64,000 nt of DNA from Periconia sp. R9002 (Eukaryota > Ascomycota > Dothideomycetes > Pleosporales > Periconiaceae). Below are positions 42,276-56,013 of the stretch, in pieces (within the stretch, counting starts at the first letter, position 1; every line of letters starts with the position of its first letter). The stretch is from positions 62,001 to 126,000 of the forward strand of contig JAMAHW010000090.1 in NCBI GenBank assembly GCA_023627715.1, in the 5' to 3' direction. A model generated the notes under the pieces. The model was given only the letters and a program-made list of their open reading frames with translations, had not been told where the DNA came from and made no database searches. A program made the position numbers and the translations under genes.

Positions 42276-43496
42276 ATGGCCACTTTCCACGGCCTCCAGC
42301 TATTCACCTTCGTCCTGGCCCTGGCGGCTAGCACCCTTTGCCGATCCACCCCATCTCCCAACAATGGCACTACAAGCACCATCTCACGGGAGCTCTTTTT
42401 CGAGCTCGAGGAACAGGCCCGCATCGTCGACATTGCATACTGCGTAGGAACCGCCGGGTTGGGCATCCAGAAACCCTTCGAATGTGCCAGCCACTGCGGC
42501 GACGAGGACTTTAAGCACTTCGAACTCGTCACGGCATGGAATACGGGCCCTCTTCTTTCTGATTCCTGCGGTTATATTGCTATATCGCACCCTCCCTCGC
42601 CTCCGCGTATCATTCTTGCCTTTCGAGGCACCTACTCCATCGCCAACACCATCGTCGATCTGTCCACAATCCCACAAGAGTACGTCCCATATCCTGGAGA
42701 TGATGGCGACGATGACGACAGTGGAAGCTCTTCCGACTTTCTCGGACCCATGTTAGGCCCTTTGTACGGAATAAACAGCAGAAAGAGAGGCGAGCCAGAT
42801 CCACCACCCGCTGACCCTCCAAAATGTGAAAACTGCACCGTTCACACCGGTTTTTACACCTCGTGGCTCAACACACGTAAAGTGATCCTCCCCGATTTGA
42901 CGGCCGCCATTCAAAAGTACCCCGGTTACAAGCTCGTACTTGTCGGGCACTCTCTAGGCGGCGCTGTAGCTGCCATCGCAGGGCTTGACCTGCAAGCACG
43001 AGGCTGGGACCCACATGTGACAACTTTTGGTGAACCGCGCATCGGAAACAAGGAACTCGCCGCCTATGTCAACGAGCGCTTTAATATAAGCAATAGCACC
43101 GAGGAGAGCAGTTTTTCCACAACCAACAAGTTTCACCGTGTGACCCACGCCAACGATCCCGTCCCACTCCTACCGCTTGAAGAATGGGGTTACACCATGC
43201 ACAGCGAAGAGTTGTTCATATCTGCCGAGTCGTTGCCTTACTCTCAAGAGGATATCCGCCATTGCGAAGGTGATGAGGACCCTACCTGTATCGCAGATTC
43301 CGATCCGTCGAACGCGCCGGGTTGGGGTATTCCGTCACGATTCAAGTTTTGGGAGCTATTCTTCGCGCATCGTGATTACTTTTGGCGGATAGGACTTTGC
43401 GTTCCTGGTGGAGATCCAAAGGACTGGTATAGGAAGTATCCAAAACATGGAGACGACGACGATAATGGTGTGCAGAACACAGTGGATGAACTGTAA
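42276..43496 (+). CDS. Secreted class 3 (fungal) lipase
   Basis: Single exon, 406 aa. Extracellular triacylglycerol lipase or feruloyl-esterase-like hydrolase of the Lipase_3 family. An N-terminal signal peptide is evident (residues 1 to about 22, LQLFTFVLALAASTLC). Before the active site lies the oxyanion block IILAFRGTYSIANTIVDLS. The nucleophile elbow is GHSLGG (Ser226), followed by AVAAIAGLDL and TTFGEPRIGN. The other triad members are probably Asp294 (HANDPVPLLP) and His365 (FFAHRDYFWR). An acidic insert, GDDGDDDDSGSSSD near 145-160, and Cys residues (CENC, CVPGG) likely decorate the surface or form disulfides. N-glycosylation sequons are present (NGT, NCT, NIS, NST). Physiological substrate is unknown. 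Confidence 0.93.
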   Translation: MATFHGLQLFTFVLALAASTLCRSTPSPNNGTTSTISRELFFELEEQARIVDIAYCVGTAGLGIQKPFECASHCGDEDFKHFELVTAWNTGPLLSDSCGYIAISHPPSPPRIILAFRGTYSIANTIVDLSTIPQEYVPYPGDDGDDDDSGSSSDFLGPMLGPLYGINSRKRGEPDPPPADPPKCENCTVHTGFYTSWLNTRKVILPDLTAAIQKYPGYKLVLVGHSLGGAVAAIAGLDLQARGWDPHVTTFGEPRIGNKELAAYVNERFNISNSTEESSFSTTNKFHRVTHANDPVPLLPLEEWGYTMHSEELFISAESLPYSQEDIRHCEGDEDPTCIADSDPSNAPGWGIPSRFKFWELFFAHRDYFWRIGLCVPGGDPKDWYRKYPKHGDDDDNGVQNTVDEL

Positions 43497-45587: not shown

Positions 45588-48500
45588 CTAGCTCAGCTTG
45601 ACCTGCAACACCGCCTTCAATGCTACACGATTTGACAACACATATCCACTCGCATAATCCCTCACATCTTCTGCAGATAGAATGGTGCCGAGGGCTTCGC
45701 CAGTGCTACCCTCAAGAGCTGCATCGCGAACCAAGGCTGTACCGCGCGCATTCAAACTTTCAATGTCGTTGTTAGTCGCCTGGCGGAGTGCCTCATAACA
45801 TTGCTTGACTTTGAGATTGACGTTCTTGAGTTTTGGTTTCGCCAACTTGACGTACGCCGAGACTTTATTCTTGACGCCTTGTTGAATGAACTTGTCCAGT
45901 TGTTGGAGCATGCGTAAGGCTTCAAGCAAGCCGTATCGGTGCATAAGGTACTTTTCGTTGAACAATGGTACAGCTTCTTCGTTGGGTTTGCTGAAGGCTT
46001 CGGCGAAGGATTCGAGCTCACTGGACAATATGTCCAAGGCTTCATCCATAGATTTGATGGGTGTGGACTCAGATTCAATCTGAGGGGCGTCGCCTTGGAA
46101 AACGATGTAACGAGCCGGATTCCACAACTTGTTCATGGCCGTCTCAACTACTGCGAATCCACCTTTGCCGAATTTCTCCCTTGATTCATCGGCAGATAAC
46201 ATGCCCACTGCACGCTGGTATGTGACAAGGGACGCCGGGTTGAGTATACTGCCTTGAACCGATTCACGCAATGTGTAGTAATTGTATAGCCACCCGATCG
46301 AAGCTGGTTCATGCTCTAGTATAAGCGACATCGTTTCATTCTCATCCCCTGATCCGAAATTGGGCACAAAATTCAGATCACGATTGTCTGACACTTTGGA
46401 TAGGCCTCAATGATTAGTTAGCAGGAAAATCTCCGGATATATCGCTATCTATTTTGTGGCCAATGCCTAAACTTACCCTGGAGAATGTCTTGCGATACCG
46501 CATCGACTTCGATCCCACGTAAAGCAGAAATGCGATTCTTTTCAACAATGCACAACTTTTTGGTGATGCTGTTATGAAATTTTTGCTTGAGATCGAGCAT
46601 ATCTAAAGCAGTGTCGTAGTAGAAGTGTTCCATGTCGTTGTATAGGTGATCGTCCGTCTTATTCTCCATCCGTGTGATGGTATCGATAACCTTGTTGAGT
46701 TCGGCAGTAGCTGAGAAGCCATCGTAGCCTAGAACATCAAAAGGATGTGTTTGAGATATGCGTGCAAGTAGAACCCATGATACAGTATCCATCAACATCT
46801 CCTTGACTTTGGCATGTTTATAGTGTTGAAACGCAATAGTTCCCAGGCCAAGGTTCAAATGTAAGCGAGCAGAAACTACAGTTAATGCCCGCAAATTTCT
46901 GAAGTCCTCCTCTTCCATGAGATGTCTTACAAACATAGTAGCCTGGATTAAGTAACGCATCGAATTTTCACCAGCCCTCTTGTGAAGACTGAGTAGGCCG
47001 ACAATAGCTAAGAGGGCAGCTTCGAAACGCACGTCATTCTCAGATGAGGGGGCAAGATGGTGGAACTTAAGAGCTCTAACCACAAAATCTTCAATCAGCT
47101 CTTTGCTCGTTTCAGAGGATATTGAAATCGTCAGTAGATATTCGAACGCCAATACATTGCTCTCAGTTCGGATCCAGGTGGAGTTGGCAGATTCATTCGA
47201 ATTCGACTTTGAGGACTCCGAAGTTTCCTTTATGTGGGTGTAGAACTCTTTCTTCTGATCGTCTGGTAGCAGGGCTACGCAATGTCGTAGATCCTTGAAG
47301 CAGCTACGACCGGCAGAATGTTTACTCCAATACATTTTGCAGTTGTCTAGCATGGACTTTCCAGAATGCAAGGCTAAGTTCACAAGAGTGGAAGCGACAG
47401 CTCTGACCTCTAGGTTCGGTTGCACCTGTATCAAGCGCGACTGCAATGCTTCTATCCGTTCCCTAGCCCTAAAATGGTCAGTGTGAAGCGAACCATAACA
47501 ACAAGGTCCAAACCTACTCCTTTTCTGAATACAAATGAGTGATTGCATCTATAATGGAAGTCCATATTATCCACTCAGCTGTACACAAATGTACCAACTG
47601 CTGCTGGGATTTCTCCTTCTCTACACGGTCGAACACAGTGGAAAGCGTCTTCTCACATACACTCTCAAGCAATGCCCAGTTTTCACATTTGCGTATGGTC
47701 TCAATAAGAAGAAGACGGATATCGGCATCGTACTTAGGCCTGAGCTCATCCATAGTTGGTGAAGACGCGGTCCAGAGCTGTTCAAGCTCAGCAGATCGAT
47801 TCTGTCGGCAATAGATATGTGCCATGAATCGCAAGTCTCTCATATCCTTCACACGTATAGTTTGGTCCTGAATGCGTAAGCTTCGATACTTGAATGAGAT
47901 TTTGCAACCTTACCGTTGGTTTGGGTGAGTTGTCAAACGCTTCTTTCATTTGCTTCAAAGCAATCATGAATTGGATTTGACTGCTTGGATCAGGCTTTCC
48001 AGATGTTCTACTAGCTTCTATCTTCTTCTCAGCCGCTAACTGGTTAGCTAGAATAGACGTATAGTATATCGCTTTCTTCGATTTGGGTCCTTCTTTGTTG
48101 GCATGAACAATCGCCTGCGGAACGTCAGTCAGCGAAACAGTGTCGAAAACACTGCAGTGAACAGCATACGATTCGAGCATCTTCCCAACAGTCTTCTTGC
48201 ATTGCAGATATAAAAAGCTCGGACCATAAGTCCAATCTTTGTGGATGCGTTGGAAGAGCTTTTGCTGCATTCTGCCACGCCTTGAGACCAAGTTCACCAA
48301 CTGAGGCCAAAGTAATGGAGTGAGGATTCGGTCTTCGTAATGCTTCACTTAGGTGGCTGTAAATAAAACACAAAAATGGTATATCGACGATAGGCGGCTG
48401 GTGTTGGCAGAGGGTTTGTAGAATGTCGAGAGCGACTTTAGCGTCTCCATCTTTGTCTACCTGAAGAAGGGCAGCAGCTTTCCATGCCTTGGTTTAAATT

Positions 48501-49124: not shown

Positions 49125-51151
49125 TTATTCTTTGCTGCTAAGAGGCGGAAACAGAACACCCTGTGATCCCTTTCCAAGGGGAATCAAGGGTGTTCCATAG
49201 TCTAAATCACCACCGGGCTTGCAATACTCCAGCGACCTGCGCGACTTATCAACGCCTAGCTGGTCAAGAAGCATTTCTGCTTTGTTAGGCATATATGGCA
49301 TCAAAAGAATGCCCACCATGCGAAGAGATTCCGAGGCGAGGTAGACAATTCTGTCAACATCCTCTCCCGGCTCCCCCTCAGCAATATTGAGCACTTTTTC
49401 CCATGGAGCAGACATGTGGAAGAATTGATTCGACTGCAACACAATTAGTTCAGAATTTCAGATCCAGCTTCCCTCAACTCACCCTGCGCGCAAATTCCAC
49501 AAGCTCGGACAAGGCTGTTCTGGGATCAAGGTTATCGAGCGCTTGCGCAATGCGTAAAGGTGCCTTTGACAGAGTGTTTTCGTAGAAGCGTCGGCCTGGG
49601 GCTTCAATGTAGTCCTCGGAGTATGGATCTTGGTTTTCCCATGTTGTAAAATCCAAAGGCCCCATTCGCTCCACTGCTCCCCGCACACTCCACATCTTTG
49701 CTCTTGTAACCCGGGATGTCATGTTTCCGAGGATTCCGAGGAGAAACTTGTCGTACGTGTTGATGATGGAATAGTTATTGTAATTAGAGTCGTCTTGAAT
49801 ACCTCCCTCATGTGCCAGGTAGAACCGCATGACATCGGGTCCGAATCTGTCCAGTGCGAGGAAGGGGTCAACTACGCGCCCAGTAGATTTCGACATTTTA
49901 CTGCCGCCGAGCGTCCAGTGTGCATGGGTTAGTATTCTCTTAGGCAAGGGGAGACCAAGTGCCATGAGAAAGGCTGGCCAGTAGATGCAATGGAATCGGA
50001 CTATATCCTTGCCAATGACTTGACAATCAGCAGGCCAACCACCTTCGTGGTCGCGCCCAGGTGTCCAAGGATATCCGGCCTTTGTTGCATAATTCATCAA
50101 AGCATCCAGCCAAACGTATATGGTTTGGGACGAATCCCCTGGTACACCGATACCCCACGTCAGTCGAGTTGACGGCCGCGATATAGACAGGTCTTCAAGG
50201 CCTGATTCTACAGATTGAACGACTTCCTTCATTCGATGTTCTGGTGTAATCCACTGGGGGTTTGCCTCGTAAAATTCCAAAAGCTGGTCGCGAAAGGATG
50301 AAAGACGGAAGTGGTAGTTGGTCTCAGACGACCACTCTACTTCGCTCCCTGTTTCGATTGAAGTCTAGTATGTCAGCAAGTTTTCTTGTCCCTGGAAAGC
50401 CCTCACTCACCACCATCTTACGGCCAGTCGGGGGATCAATATATGGCCGCACTGCGGACGGTGGATAAAATGCCTCATCTGTGACCGAGTACCACCCTTC
50501 ATGCTTTTCGGTATAAATGTAGCCTTTCTCTTTCAAGAGGAGCTGCCATGTTGTAAGCCACCGCCGAAGCAATTACAACCCATTGTGTCATACCCACGCA
50601 TATTCAACGGCATCCTTGTGTTCTCTGTCTGTCGTTCGGACGAAATGATCGTTGGTGAGGAGCGCTTTTTGCGCAAGCTGTTTGAAGACGGTGGCGCCAT
50701 CGTCGCAAAAGAGCTTGGGGTCTACTCCAGCTTTTTCGGCTGCTCGTTGAACCTTGAATGTTATCAGCCATGGTATTGCAAATTTGGATGTATTTGTATA
50801 ACCTTCAGGCCATGCTCATCGGTGCCGGTGCACAGCAATGCCTTCTTGCCCTTCAGCACTTGCCATCGCTTGATGATGTCCGCGAGGACCATGGTGTAGA
50901 GGTGGCCGACATGAGGAGCTTTGCAATCTATTAGCGAATCTAGACCAACTTCTCTTTCTTGTGTTCAACCAACCGGCATTGACATAGAAGATCGGCGTAG
51001 TGATGTAGAACGGCTTCTGATCCGTGGAAAGATGACGGGTGCCAATTGCCTTTACACTGCATGCTCTGCATACCCACGGGTTCGTTCGAGACAGACTAGA
51101 ATACAGCCGCCGACCGGCTGGGGCTGCCAAGTTGTAGATGCGTGAGCGCAT
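49125..51151 (-). CDS. MSM1: Mitochondrial methionyl-tRNA synthetase
   Basis: Class I synthetase charging mitochondrial tRNA-Met. Exons: 51151-50974, 50918-50803, 50752-50594, 50542-50411, 50364-49483 and 49433-49125, in phase throughout, 591 aa. The N-terminus MRSRIYNLAAPAGRRLYSSLSRTN is Arg/Ser-rich without acidic residues, a mitochondrial presequence. A Met at 51268 would add 39 residues and is less likely because it buries the presequence. PFYITTPIFYVNA and the HIGH-type motif HVGHLYTM cross the first intron. GYIYTEKHEGWYSVTDE, SIETGSEVEWSSETNYHF and the KMSKS loop (GGSKMSKSTGR) are complete. The anticodon-binding helices follow. The zinc-finger insert of cytosolic enzymes is absent, as in other mitochondrial types. 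Confidence 0.95.
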
Positions 51152-52127
51152 TCTTCCGAATCCTCGTCCAAAGCAGCTTTCATCCCATTGCGGAGAGCTT
51201 CCCTTCTCCGAGGCCAACTTTTGCGCACGGACCGCCGCCGCTAGCTCGCTATTGACGATCCATTTCAATTACAACATCATCTCCTGGCACCCACTCTACA
51301 ATAACCGTATACAATCCGCCAAACGTGTCTATTCACCATGACTGCTGTCGTATTGAAGGTAAATGTCATTCATAATGGTCTAGAATTGCTCACAACAGAT
51401 AATTATCCTTTCCACCTCGGCGAGTGAACGTACGTCGTATCTGCACATACTCTGTATAACATCCAAGAGCAAAACCATCTGGACCTCCAAGCAATTGAAC
51501 CACCGATTTTGTGGTGAAATCTAGGCTCCATTGGATTCAATGGAAAATACTCTCAATCATTCCAACGGATGCTTTGAGGCGGTCGCCTCTTCACTTTCCA
51601 ATGTCTGGAATCCTATTCAGACCCTAAAACGGCAATATTCTCGTCACTTGCCGCCTTCCCTTCTTGTCTGCATCCAACTACGCCCCCGACTCCATTATTA
51701 CATCCTTTGTATCGCGGGCACCTCATGGTCCTGCGCCATGATTAACAAAAATCTGGAACTTTATCCACTTTGTCGTCGCTCTTGTGCTAAATCCCATGAT
51801 CTTCTCTTGATGGCGGGCCTTCACTTTTCCACTTCGTCGAGCCTATAATTAGGTAAGTCGGCGAAACAACGTTCAAGTCTATTGAGTCTATTCAGGACTG
51901 TTTTCCAACTACTGTCTTTATTCTCCCCATTGAGTCTCCTCCTTGCCGGCCAACACTAGGAAGTCACTCCTTTATGCCCCCACGCCCTTCTTCGTATATA
52001 TAACCTGCTCTTCTTCAACTTGAGCGTTTTTCCGACATCGACATTCGTATCCTATCATTCAAGTCCAAGTCGACAATCTCCAACTACTACACCACTCTTT
52101 GAGAAGTCTTACCTTAACACTTCCACC
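51152..52127. other. Intergenic upstream of the repeat-precursor gene
   Basis: About 1 kb between the divergent MetRS and repeat-precursor genes. It contains CT-rich leader DNA close to 52080 and a TATA motif (51995-52003). A possible two-exon 48-codon reading (51338-51358 plus 51399-51524) is noted but not called. Confidence 0.5.
51995..52003 (+). promoter_or_regulatory. TATA-box candidate (TATATATAA)
   Basis: 125 bp upstream of the repeat-precursor ATG, in the position expected for a strong, regulated fungal promoter. Other genes in this window lack such a clear TATA motif close to the start. Confidence 0.5.
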
Positions 52128-52619
52128 ATGAAGCTCAACGCCGCCATTGCCGTCGCTATCCTTAGCGCTACCTCCTACGCCGTCGCTCTTCCCGACCCCG
52201 GCTGCCGATTTGTTGGTCAGCCATGCAAGCGTGATGCCGAGCCTCGTCGATTCGTTGGCCAGCCTGCTAAGCGTGAAGCCGAGCCTCGTCGATTCGTTGG
52301 CCAGCCCGCTAAGCGTGAGGCTGAACCTGAGGCAGGTGCGTTACCCGAAGCCGAACCCCGTCGATTTGTTGGTCAGCCTGCAAAGCGTGAAGCTGAAGCT
52401 GAGCCCCGTCGATTCGTCGGCCAGCCTGCTAAACGTGATGCTGAAGCCGAGCCGCGCCGTTTTGTCGGCCAGCCTGCTAAGCGTGATGCTGAAGCAGAGC
52501 CCCGTCGATTCGTTGGCCAGCCTGCAAAGCGTGAAGCTGAGCCTCGTCGTTTTGTCGGCCAGCCTGCTAAGCGTGATGCTGAGGCCGAGCCCCGTCGATT
52601 CGTCGGCCAGCCAGCGTAA
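52128..52619 (+). CDS. Secreted Kex2-processed repeat precursor, alpha-pheromone-like
   Basis: Single exon, 163 aa. The start at 52128 begins a signal peptide (MKLNAAIAVAILSATSYAVA) with an AVA cleavage site; an upstream in-frame Met (52020) would spoil it. No pro-region follows: LPDP leads directly to GCRFVGQPC, then eight copies of RRFVGQPA. Copies are separated by Kex2 sites (KR) and spacers of acidic dipeptides. Every spacer breaks exactly into X-Ala or X-Pro dipeptides (DA-EP, EA-EA-EP, and the irregular EA-EP-EA-GA-LP-EA-EP), the substrate of Ste13-type dipeptidyl aminopeptidases. This is the maturation scheme of alpha-factor-type pheromones. The first copy resembles the WCxxxGQPC filamentous-ascomycete pheromone but has Gly for Trp; the others have lost Trp and both Cys. 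Alternatives: a Kex2-processed repeat protein of other function or a dikaritin RiPP precursor (no UstY-type gene is nearby). RR before FVGQPA could also be cleaved. Confidence 0.82.
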   Translation: MKLNAAIAVAILSATSYAVALPDPGCRFVGQPCKRDAEPRRFVGQPAKREAEPRRFVGQPAKREAEPEAGALPEAEPRRFVGQPAKREAEAEPRRFVGQPAKRDAEAEPRRFVGQPAKRDAEAEPRRFVGQPAKREAEPRRFVGQPAKRDAEAEPRRFVGQPA

Positions 52620-52685
52620 AAACTTTTCTTCCTAAAGACGACATTCACGTAAAGGGCCCATGTCTGGAGAAACTGGTCAACAGGA

Positions 52686-52816
52686 GTTAGTTGGGTAACC
52701 TGCTAAACTATGAGACAGAAGCCGAACCTGCCCCGGCTGTTTACAAGCGTGATCCCAAGGCCGAGGCTGAGGCCTTTGCAAAGGCCTGGTGTCGCTTTGT
52801 GGGCCAGCCGTGCTAA
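52686..52816 (+). pseudogene. Decayed end of the pheromone-like precursor with canonical WCRFVGQPC copy
   Basis: 67 bp after the stop of the repeat gene, DNA at about 52690-52730 still aligns with a repeat unit (GTTGG, CCTGCTAA, GAAGCCGA), but CAG has become TAA and a base is inserted. The next stretch is open from 52691 to the stop at 52814-52816 in another frame. It encodes AVYKR, the spacer DPKAEAEAFAKA (again only X-Pro/X-Ala dipeptides), then WCRFVGQPC and stop. Ending right after the last pheromone copy is usual for such precursors. I found no intron with usable phase that joins it to the upstream gene, and it has no ATG. So it is either a broken part of the same gene or an assembly or sequencing error in repetitive DNA. 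Confidence 0.65.
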
Positions 52817-54411
52817 ACGCGTCGCTCCACCGAAGATCCATCACAGTCATGCGGGTGACTCCGACCTGGTTGAAACAGTATTGCCTTTTTCCTTCTACCA
52901 TTCGCTTCTCTGATTATACTACGACCCAAGCCCCTGAAGACTCGAAAAGCCGTCCAGTATGCCCCGGACGCCATACAAAACAACCATTTGATTACTGGAT
53001 TTCCTTTCTCAGTCAGCCAGAGGCTATTTTATATTTCTTTCTCCTGGATTCAATACTTGGATTCTACTGCATGTATTAGACTTTGCTCGATCATAGGTGT
53101 CCGATTTGTGGGCATTTTGCATCTAATGAGCCGGCCAGTCCTTCATCTGCAAGTACTGCAGGACATCTGAACGTGTACTATCTCTTTACCATGTACATGA
53201 TTAGAGTGTTTTCCTGATGAAGGATCATACTACATACTGGTCTTTTTTGAAAAAAATAAAATCAATTCTTGTATATTAATGCTTAACTTCTTTCTACCGC
53301 TTGATGGTGACCATTGAACCGCACTGAAATTTTATCCCTCATGGTAGATATGCCCCGTCCATCCATGCCACCCTGTACCCATGAAAAACGCCCCACTTGG
53401 GTAAAATCTCAATCACACAAACATCGGTGTGAACAAACACCCAAAGCACAATCTTTCCCGCAGGGCCACTTTGAACACCCACATATACACGCGCGCGCGT
53501 CCCATTTTTGACAGCGCAGTTTAACTGCTCAAATAATGCGTAGGATAAATGTAACCAATCAGCAAAATGTGATATGTGGGTGTTTATATCTCGCCCCCTA
53601 CAGCTGCCTGCCGACCTACTCCATCATCATTATTTGTTTAATGCATTAAGTAACTGCGTAAATAGCTTTAACGGTCAATTCACTACAAGATGCACGATAC
53701 GTGACATGGTAGGGAGAATTCAGGGGCGGGTGTAGCGAGACACATTTGTTATTCAGACCTTCGGAATCTCTTCACCACAAACGTATAGGACAGTAGATTC
53801 GTAGGTCTCACTAAAGATAATAGAAAATTCGATATATGAACACCCAGGGATGATTAATGCAAAGTTAAAGTTGTTATCAATCAATTCGATCGTAAAATCA
53901 ATCGTTATTTTACAAGTTCACCCTATCTTTCTCTTTCTTAGGGCAAATTATTCAGACATAATTTAGTAGGTTAGGTATAAGGGTGACTAGATATTCCAAC
54001 AATGTTTTGTAGACGTGTGAGGCATCTACAACATTATTACATACATTACAAATTTCACCAATCCATAGCAGAGTCCTTAGAAACTATAACTAACTTAAGA
54101 TGTTTTAGCGAGCGAAACCCTACAAGTTTGAAAAGCTTTTCGGTTTCTTAAATACAACTACAGTCATTGTACATTAGAGGCTGTAGCGTAGGGTATTCTT
54201 TCTTTAGCAATACTTGTCCTTTCCCCACTCCATTGTTTGTCCCCTACTTACCTATCCATGATTTGAATGCTTATAAATTTACGTTAGTGCTTACTGATTA
54301 CTTGATGCGATATTAAGAAAGCTGCTACTGCGCCTCGCTAAGCCTACCTACTTTTACCTCTTATTTAAAGTGTCTGCCTGCAGCGTCCACTAGCTGTACA
54401 GTACTTCAAAA
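52817..54411. other. AT-rich intergenic region
   Basis: 1.6 kb, noticeably AT-rich from about 53170 to 54400 compared with the rest of the window, and without a coding-like frame over 75 codons. It could be decayed DNA bordering the accessory genes. No terminal repeats or target duplications were seen. Confidence 0.5.
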
Positions 54412-56013
54412 ATGGCGTTTCGCCGTATACCAAATGAACTACTTTACTGTATAGCAGAGGCTCTGGACCAAGAGAGGGATATCAACGCTTTCTCACAAAC
54501 GACTCGCCGCACTTACTTTCTATTAAATCCATATCTTTACTATCACAACACACAACAGTCTGGAAGCTCGGCCTTATTGTGGGCTGCTGAGCATGGGCAA
54601 GTGACAACGGCTGAGAAGCTGATGCGAGAAAGAACCGATGATCAAGCTGTATCTGACTATTCGAAACCTCTCTGCGTGGCAGCAGAGAATGGGCATCAAG
54701 AGATAGTTAAGCTGCTACTGGATAATGGGGCCGACACGACAGCAACCAAAAATGGGTGGACGCCGCTTAACCGGGCAGTGTCTATGGATCATATCATGAC
54801 AGTTAAGCTGCTGCTTGAGAAAGGGGCGGACATAACAGCGAATAAAAGTGGGTGGACATCGCTGCACTCAGCAGCAGACAAGGGATATAAGAAGATAGCT
54901 AAGCTGCTGCTTGAGAAAGGGGCGGACATGACAGTTGACAAAGATGGGTGGACACCACTCAACCTAGCAGCCGACAGTGGCCATATTAGCACAGTCAAGC
55001 TGCTATTGGATAATGGGGCAGATATGGCAACAGACGACCCTGAAATGGCGCCGCTCGACCGGGCAGCCATGCATGGTCATTTTAAAACAATAAAGCTACT
55101 CCTTAAAAAAGGGGCGGTTATAGCAGACACTGGGTACACGCCGCTCCACGCAGCAGCACAATTTGATCACATCGAGATAGTCAGGCTGCTGCTCAAGGAG
55201 GGGGCAAAGATAGCAGCACCTGATGATGGCGGCCGGACACCGCTCAGAACAGCAGCAATCAATAACCATGTAGAATTGATTGAGCTACTGCTTGAGGAGG
55301 GGGCAGATATAACACAAGGCGATGATAAGGGCTTCACGCCACTTCACGTAGCAGCAGAAAAAGGTTGTTTTGATACAGCTAAGCTGCTGCTGACTAAAGG
55401 AGCAGATATGGCTGTTATTAATGGTTTTGGTGCGACGCCGCTTTACCAAGCAGCACATAATGGCCGTCTGAACATAGTGGAGCTACTGCTTGAGAACGGG
55501 GCAGATATAACAATATGCGGCAGGGACAACTGGACGCCACTTAACATAGCAGCCGAGTTCGGTCAACTTGAGATAGTCAAGCTGTTGCTCGAGAAGGGAG
55601 CAGATTGGACGGTACCTGAGAGCGCTGCCGGCTGGACGCCGCTGAACTCAGCGGCAGAGAGGGGCCACCTTGAAATAGCCAAACTTCTACTTGAGAAGGG
55701 AGCAGACATAGAAACAAGCAGTATCGATAACTGGACACCACTCAATGCCGCAGCGGACAGTGGCCATGTCAAAGTAGTTGAGCTGCTGCTCGAGAAGGGA
55801 GCAGATATGGAAAAACGCAGTGACCGTGATGGCTGGACACCACTCTACTCAGCAGTATTCCAAAACCATCCCGAAGTAGTCAGACTGCTACTTGAGAAGG
55901 GTGCAGATTTCACAGTAACAGACAAGGAGGGCACCACACTGCTTCGGGCAGCCCGGAAGAAGCCCGACATACTCGAGCTGTTGCGCGAGAAAGGTGTTCA
56001 CGACGATACGTAA
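54412..56013 (+). CDS. F-box-like/ankyrin-repeat protein
   Basis: Single exon, 533 aa. Residues 1-45 (FRRIPNELLYCIAEALDQERDINAFSQTTRRTYFLLNPYLYYHN) match the F-box-like head of fungal F-box/ankyrin proteins, which would recruit an SCF ubiquitin ligase. It is followed by about 14 ankyrin repeats to the C-terminus, most fitting GWTPLxxAAxxGHxxIVKLLLEKGAD. The repeat partner is unknown. Adjacent repeats are very similar in DNA: the 30-bp stretch encoding KLLLEKGAD is identical at about 54807 and 54891, a sign of recent duplication or exchange. The last unit is degenerate (TTLLRAARKKPDILELLREKG). It lies alone between an AT-rich gap and the ubiquitin-like/zinc-finger gene, facing it tail to tail. 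Confidence 0.9.
   Translation: MAFRRIPNELLYCIAEALDQERDINAFSQTTRRTYFLLNPYLYYHNTQQSGSSALLWAAEHGQVTTAEKLMRERTDDQAVSDYSKPLCVAAENGHQEIVKLLLDNGADTTATKNGWTPLNRAVSMDHIMTVKLLLEKGADITANKSGWTSLHSAADKGYKKIAKLLLEKGADMTVDKDGWTPLNLAADSGHISTVKLLLDNGADMATDDPEMAPLDRAAMHGHFKTIKLLLKKGAVIADTGYTPLHAAAQFDHIEIVRLLLKEGAKIAAPDDGGRTPLRTAAINNHVELIELLLEEGADITQGDDKGFTPLHVAAEKGCFDTAKLLLTKGADMAVINGFGATPLYQAAHNGRLNIVELLLENGADITICGRDNWTPLNIAAEFGQLEIVKLLLEKGADWTVPESAAGWTPLNSAAERGHLEIAKLLLEKGADIETSSIDNWTPLNAAADSGHVKVVELLLEKGADMEKRSDRDGWTPLYSAVFQNHPEVVRLLLEKGADFTVTDKEGTTLLRAARKKPDILELLREKGVHDDT

Follow-up and report, generated by a model that had tools for sequence, protein, structure and literature searches.

Does a pheromone gene made up largely of cysteine-free repeats still encode a canonical, two-cysteine signal? 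The question is raised by an open reading frame (ORF) in Periconia sp. R9002, located in a window of 64,000 nucleotides on contig C90 of the draft genome. A sequence-only reading had described the ORF as an alpha-pheromone precursor whose repeated peptide has become linear and cysteine-free, a change that would alter recognition by the receptor or lend the peptide a different function. The elements of the ORF are listed below.

52128-52619, + strand: the 163-amino-acid ORF (standard code), defined as an open reading frame with its translation
52128-52187, + strand: putative signal peptide, MKLNAAIAVAILSATSYAVA, from inspection of the translation, with a presumed cut after AVA
52200-52226, + strand: GCRFVGQPC copy, with LP DP before it and KR after it
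52245-52310, + strand: two RRFVGQPA units (52245-52268 and 52287-52310), found by motif search and assigned to predicted exon 1
52359-52616, + strand: six further RRFVGQPA units, continuing the exon 1 frame and lying within the predicted intron
52617-52619, + strand: stop codon directly behind the last FVGQPA, which would end the predicted intron-retained form

The repeat array, its relatives and its class

The putative signal peptide, the single GCRFVGQPC and the eight RRFVGQPA copies (starting at 52245, 52287, 52359, 52407, 52455, 52503, 52545, and 52593) are all present as first described. The statement that KR stands behind each copy needs correction, since the last RRFVGQPA runs straight into the stop codon. 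Within the ORF, copies are separated by KR and by X-Ala/X-Pro dipeptides, and one linker of the array, KREAEPEAGALPEAEP, is longer than the rest. A tandem-repeat scan recovers the array as a strong repeat, in three overlapping long rows with scores of 206 to 381. Because the eight RRFVGQPA cores are separated by at least nine base changes, all of them synonymous, the array is not a product of chance.

The ORF protein was searched against about 5.8 billion proteins, with scoring of the 7997 candidates that had the most words in common with it. Seven of these matched at E ≤ 0.01. The best among those scored was a 95-residue hypothetical protein of P. macrospinosa, DM02DRAFT_614486 (hereafter P0001), with an E value of 7.6e-21 and 30% query coverage. 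The remaining six were two JGI proteins, one of which carries repeated WCRFPGQPC, one ENA protein, and three Hortaea werneckii proteins that carry other repeats. With the predicted spliced product as query (52128-52335 joined to 52719-52816; see below), P0001 aligned across 100% of the query at 83% identity (E 1.4e-42), and was the sole match at E ≤ 0.1 among 238 candidates. By sequence comparison, the ORF is part of an alpha-pheromone precursor gene orthologous to P0001.

The two genes share the putative signal peptide (one difference), an identical first copy, GCRFVGQPC, an internal copy without Trp and Cys, and an identical WCRFVGQPC tail, which in the window lies outside the ORF. They differ in that P0001 has one internal copy, RKFVGQPV, whereas the window has eight of RRFVGQPA; no retained-intron form is known for P0001. 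Note also that the internal copy of P0001 has no clean Ste13 ladder (GF SS GQ stand before RKFVGQPV), whereas the copies in the window do. Here, the ladder is intact, taking in all dipeptides before all copies, in both the predicted spliced and the predicted retained forms. The GCRFVGQPC copy has Gly at the usual Trp position. Since it is the same in both species, and is placed right behind the signal peptide and LP DP, it may be a conserved second product.

A lipase gene served as a marker of synteny:

42276-43496, + strand: neighbouring lipase gene, 88% identical to P. macrospinosa protein P0008

The gene lies about 8.6 kb upstream of the pheromone gene, and its product is 81% identical to a P. 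digitata protein. Relative to P. macrospinosa, about 11% of ungapped residues differ. The fungus is probably a different species from the sequenced P. macrospinosa. In that species the lipase and pheromone genes are most likely linked too, because the lipase orthologue comes from a 168032-base contig, as does P0001. Other neighbours were named by reading their translations. Upstream are methionyl-tRNA synthetase-like (49474-51268, - strand) and SRP68-like (45588-48348, - strand) ORFs. Just downstream is a single-exon, ankyrin-repeat-like ORF of about 535 residues (54394-56013, + strand), which contains a 96-base tandem DNA repeat at 54679-55026.

The original assignment to the alpha-pheromone precursors is supported. 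The orthologue ends in WCRFVGQPC, a Ste13 ladder precedes every copy, matches to STE2, STE3, Kex2-type and DPPIV-type proteins are found in the genome, and none of the at least 61 UstYa matches is on the contig. Like the Ppg1 and MF-alpha precursors of Pezizomycotina, among them the two-Cys Dothideomycete group outlined in excerpts of PMC6339444, the gene encodes a presumably secreted protein with Kex2 KR sites, an X-Ala/X-Pro ladder and a WCxxxGQPC peptide. Unlike in those precursors, most copies lack Trp and both Cys, the canonical copy is in a predicted second exon, and a predicted intron encodes more copies. Variation in repeat number and sequence is well known for alpha-pheromones of filamentous ascomycetes, according to excerpts of PMC6339444 and PMC10569646. 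The repeats in the window are flanked by Kex2 sites; GCRFVGQPC and WCRFVGQPC have 9 residues, and RRFVGQPA has 8, one below the 9-14 range given in the available part of PMC10569646. A central GQ turn is present in all nine ORF copies and in the exon-2 copy. The canonical WCxxxGQPC pattern is absent from the ORF, and occurs at 52787-52813, where it would be part of the product if exon 2 is expressed. Excerpts of PMC6339444 also describe PYG[L/M]P[I/V]G alpha-pheromones in Pleosporales, the same order, which likewise have a Cys-free core motif. Theirs is a different core, whereas the window gene keeps GQP and still encodes a two-Cys peptide.

The ORF, the predicted spliced product and P0001 all lacked a Pfam match above cut-off; the best below cut-off were DUF1382 and Tachykinin. 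In our view, a Pfam match is not a defining feature of Pezizomycotina alpha-pheromone precursors. To our knowledge, the yeast MF_alpha models do not cover the filamentous alpha-pheromones.

Matches to the expected partners are scattered across the genome. The STE2 receptor was matched in two exons on contig C1 (E 4.6e-73, the second being below cut-off), and STE3 in two pieces on contig C26, one containing TAG (introns were not modelled). A Kex2-type protease is indicated by one P-domain match on contig C29, and DPPIV_N has three genome matches, two of them strong. Since PF04769 (MAT1-1-1 type) gave no genome match, in a search run without a positive control, the strain could be MAT1-2. There were 12 HMG-box matches in the genome, ten with loci. 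These were read by eye, except L039, and none was assigned as MAT1-2-1. One HMG-box exon, at C7:504970-505140, reads AFILYRQHHQ...ISKIIGEQW, and we take it to resemble an FMF-1/Ste11-type regulator.

A canonical copy beyond the stop codon

Features downstream of the ORF are as follows.

52787-52813, + strand: canonical WCRFVGQPC, found by codon-pattern search (C90:114787-114813), starting 167 bases past the ORF stop
52719-52816, + strand: predicted exon 2, ...EAEPAPAVYKR DP KA EA EA FA KA WCRFVGQPC stop, from identity to P0001, coding score and the Ste13 ladder
52687-52728, + strand: decayed repeat copy across the predicted 3' splice site, no longer in frame and with an internal TAA, from alignment against shuffles

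On the same strand, 92 bases past the ORF stop, another frame encodes ETEAEPAPAVYKRDPKAEAEAFAKAWCRFVGQPC (52712-52816), ending in a stop codon at 52814-52816. This tail, which is outside the ORF, agrees with P0001 at 34 of 34 residues. Two of these (E and T) precede the predicted acceptor, and the other 32, in exon 2, are identical to the P0001 tail. At the divergence rate of the lipase, the chance of no difference in the tail is 0.02. Furthermore, the dipeptides ahead of WCRFVGQPC in exon 2 are X-Ala/X-Pro in six cases out of six (chance 7e-6). The codon-pattern search also found two further WC...GQPC matches elsewhere in the genome: WCYQTGQPC (C10:152682-152708) and WCSWLGQPC (C67:196781-196807).

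These observations bear directly on the opening question. The idea that the gene has shifted to a Cys-free peptide is not supported in the form proposed: the first copy keeps both Cys, and downstream there is still an intact canonical WCRFVGQPC, most likely in a second exon. Absence of Trp and both Cys applies to the internal copies, as it does to RKFVGQPV of P. macrospinosa, but not to GCRFVGQPC, which has both Cys, nor to the downstream WCRFVGQPC. The reported ORF most likely consists of exon 1 and the first part of an intron. Because WCRFVGQPC is preserved as a probable exon 2, and the ORF would include part of an intron, there is no need to assume that Ste2 now recognises its canonical ligand differently. 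It is possible that the retained form makes the Cys-free octapeptide, with perhaps another job.

Predicted splicing and retention

The predicted gene structure has the following parts.

52128-52335, + strand: predicted exon 1, with the signal peptide, GCRFVGQPC, two RRFVGQPA units and part of the third linker, from the ORF, coding score and alignment with P0001
52336-52718, + strand: predicted 383-nucleotide intron, alternatively retained, from splice-site scores and frame
52336-52341, + strand: predicted 5' splice donor, GTGCGT preceded by CAG, the sole GTRNGT in 52128-52816
52701-52708, + strand: branch-point-like TGCTAAAC, imperfect, from motif search
52716-52718, + strand: predicted 3' splice acceptor, CAG, from donor/acceptor matrix scores

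Candidate donors were enumerated as GT or GC in 52560-52740 and as GT in 52150-52616. In a simple enrichment scan there was no sign of GTGCGT being a favoured donor, with 5 of 124 for this hexamer and 11 of 124 for the control. Since enrichment over the whole scan was as frequent for the control (2367) as for the signal (2257), we replaced the scan by a reference-free ab initio gene model. This was trained on 264 kb of this genome and gave 76 genes and 133 introns; genes with coding sequences below 600 bases were excluded and introns were restricted to 45-150 bases. None of the 133 introns is inside the pheromone gene.

The donor at 52336 has a matrix score of 3.28, the best among the 45 GTs in the gene. 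For comparison, it equals or exceeds the donor scores of 77% of the 133 ab initio introns, and 0.55% of the 3606 GTs in the window reach this value. All other GTs inside the ORF score 0.32 or less (GC donors were enumerated only, without scores). Among the linkers of the array, only the one that carries this site is unusual. Its hexamer is rare: GTGCGT starts one of the 133 trained introns, GTGCG starts three, and in an earlier gene model, which excluded genes below 900 bases, GTGCGT started one of 68. Nine acceptors can be joined in frame, and the one at 52718 scores best among them; together with the branch point, it is at the 17th percentile of trained introns. A CTRAY branch motif was not found anywhere in 52128-52816. 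At 383 nucleotides the intron compares with a median of 63 for the ab initio set, from which long introns are absent because lengths above 150 were excluded by design. A weak acceptor and a long intron would fit inefficient splicing, and equally no splicing at all.

The predicted donor and acceptor join exon 1 in frame to the WCRFVGQPC tail, giving a product of 101 residues. The junction stretch of this form ends AV YKR, which is not a Ste13 dipeptide, and no copy follows it directly. Note that the smooth exon junction is less telling because the linkers are low in complexity. The ETEAEP of the P0001 tail also matches genomic bases just upstream of the predicted acceptor, a match that would suit an intronless Periconia gene.

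The intronic part of the ORF looks like coding sequence. Per 100 bases, and in their own frames, coding scores are +2.3 for exon 1, +2.0 for the intronic part of the ORF and +3.6 for exon 2. Conversely, 52620-52718 scores negatively in all three frames. In the retained form, the donor-bearing linker EAGALP reads as X-Ala/X-Pro dipeptides, with GA across the donor and LP after it (chance 0.02). The coding scores, the ladder across the donor and the exon 2 dipeptides make both forms look like working precursors. Among the six intronic cores, pN is 0 and pS is 0.49. The chance that their base changes, at least eight, would all be synonymous is about 7e-5 under a simple model that ignores the shared history of the copies. 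The linkers vary (E or D, and in length) yet retain KR and the dipeptides. Because the cores differ synonymously only, and the Kex2 and Ste13 sites are kept, the intron-retained form also looks translated. Synonymous-only variation in the cores could also be a relic from before the intron arose.

Overall, we lean slightly towards a two-exon alpha-pheromone precursor gene of the ppg1/MF-alpha type, in which splicing would yield the canonical precursor and retention would yield linear, Cys-free FVGQP peptides. Splicing of 52336-52718, which we think probable, would give a protein with the signal peptide, GCRFVGQPC, two RRFVGQPA and WCRFVGQPC. Kex2, Kex1 and a Ste13-type dipeptidase would then release the 9-residue WCRFVGQPC to act on the Ste2 receptor. 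Were the intron retained, six further in-frame RRFVGQPA would be read, with a stop right behind the last, and WCRFVGQPC would be missing. The retained precursor would then hold GCRFVGQPC and eight linear Cys-free peptides, either RRFVGQPA or, if Kex2 also cuts after RR, FVGQPA. Hence, the choice of signal could be made by splicing or retention of one intron. Translation of the retained form is fairly likely; a signalling role of its own is rather doubtful.

Alternative explanations and significance

Two alternatives, each of which we regard as unlikely, dispute one half of this reading. In the first, the gene ends with the ORF as reported. Its ancestral tail would have been lost through a frameshift and a stop codon, leaving WCRFVGQPC at 52787 as a pseudogene remnant, and Cys-free peptides would truly have taken over in this lineage, as the sequence-only reading proposed. 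The copy preceding the tail has indeed decayed, with an internal TAA and loss of frame. Its alignment to the repeat scores 16, where the maximum of 2000 shuffles is 13; the part inside the predicted intron, 52620-52718, scores 10 when taken alone, which 7 of 2000 shuffles equal. The weak acceptor and long intron point the same way, as does the neat end of the ORF behind FVGQPA. In addition, PF04769 found no match, in a search that had no positive control, so this strain may make no use of the gene. Against this alternative, the tail agrees completely with P. macrospinosa and has an intact ladder, and the best donor in the gene restores its frame.

The second alternative accepts splicing and gives weight to the spliced form alone. 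The six repeats in the intron would be a passive expansion with no role, and leaky splicing would produce them now and then. They could be recent copies of the exonic units, and intron retention accounts for about 55% of alternative splicing events in Cordyceps militaris, where it is the major class (excerpts of PMC3522581). Conversely, the minimum of eight changes among the six units leaves the core peptide unaltered, the Kex2 and Ste13 sites are kept throughout, and the copy beyond the stop has decayed.

Far less probable is a misassembly of the array, creating the stop and the unique stretch 52620-52686 in a gene whose true form is an uninterrupted array with WCRFVGQPC at its end. Misassembly readily affects short tandem repeats, and this draft assembly is in 267 contigs. 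Against this, 52610-52715 matches nothing else in the genome, and 52620-52686, compared as a duplicated 5' or 3' flank or as a piece of exon, was no more similar than shuffled sequence in each of four comparisons. The stretch also grades into the decayed repeat with several differences, a pattern that a collapsed repeat would not produce.

Finally, it is hardly credible that the gene encodes a UstA-like precursor of a dikaritin or of another cyclic RiPP: it shares KR-separated, Kex2-processed repeats with such precursors (excerpts of PMC7329392), but its core has no Tyr, the Ste13 ladder and a WCxxxGQPC peptide are present, and the reading was rejected because none of the at least 61 UstYa (DUF3328) matches in the genome is on contig C90. 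The UstYa matches were made exon by exon and are spread over many contigs, several with internal stops (introns were not modelled). This suggests many cyclic-peptide clusters elsewhere in the genome.

Splicing is known to act on ascomycete pheromone systems, but on the receptor. Alternative splicing is described for the pheromone receptor gene map3 of Pneumocystis in excerpts of PMC6747714, and is mentioned for the receptor in Huntiella omanensis in the available part of PMC13037118. In the window, it is predicted to act on the precursor and its peptide copies. In the open-licence literature, judged by title and abstract among the matches listed, we did not find an intron that encodes pheromone copies, or splicing that swaps them.

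What might the Cys-free peptides do? Work on the alpha-pheromone of Fusarium oxysporum, as given in excerpts of PMC7289986, offers an analogy. There, the central Gly-Gln turn is required for receptor-dependent responses. A double D-Ala analogue (residues 1 and 2) retains Ste2-dependent chemotropism and fails to repress germination, while Cys oxidation abolishes activity and the disulfide form is inactive. By analogy, we propose that a natural peptide which keeps the GQ turn and lacks Trp1, Cys2 and Cys9 might be unaffected by oxidation and act as a partial or biased ligand. Tentatively, and with some doubt, the two-exon reading can be extended. The intron would be a pheromone-like array under coding selection, and splicing would switch between a canonical two-Cys pheromone and eight redox-insensitive analogues without Trp and Cys. 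These could act selectively on Ste2, for example in chemotropism without growth arrest, or could block it.

In light of the Fusarium results with D-Ala and with Cys oxidation (excerpts of PMC7289986), a natural analogue that lacks Trp1, Cys2 and Cys9 would readily serve to test biased signalling. The locus also carries a warning, in that gene predictions and repeat-peptide surveys based on single ORFs can miss the canonical copy. If the preferred, two-exon reading is true, one gene could make two signals for the same receptor, chosen by splicing, and both ligand and receptor would be simple to test.
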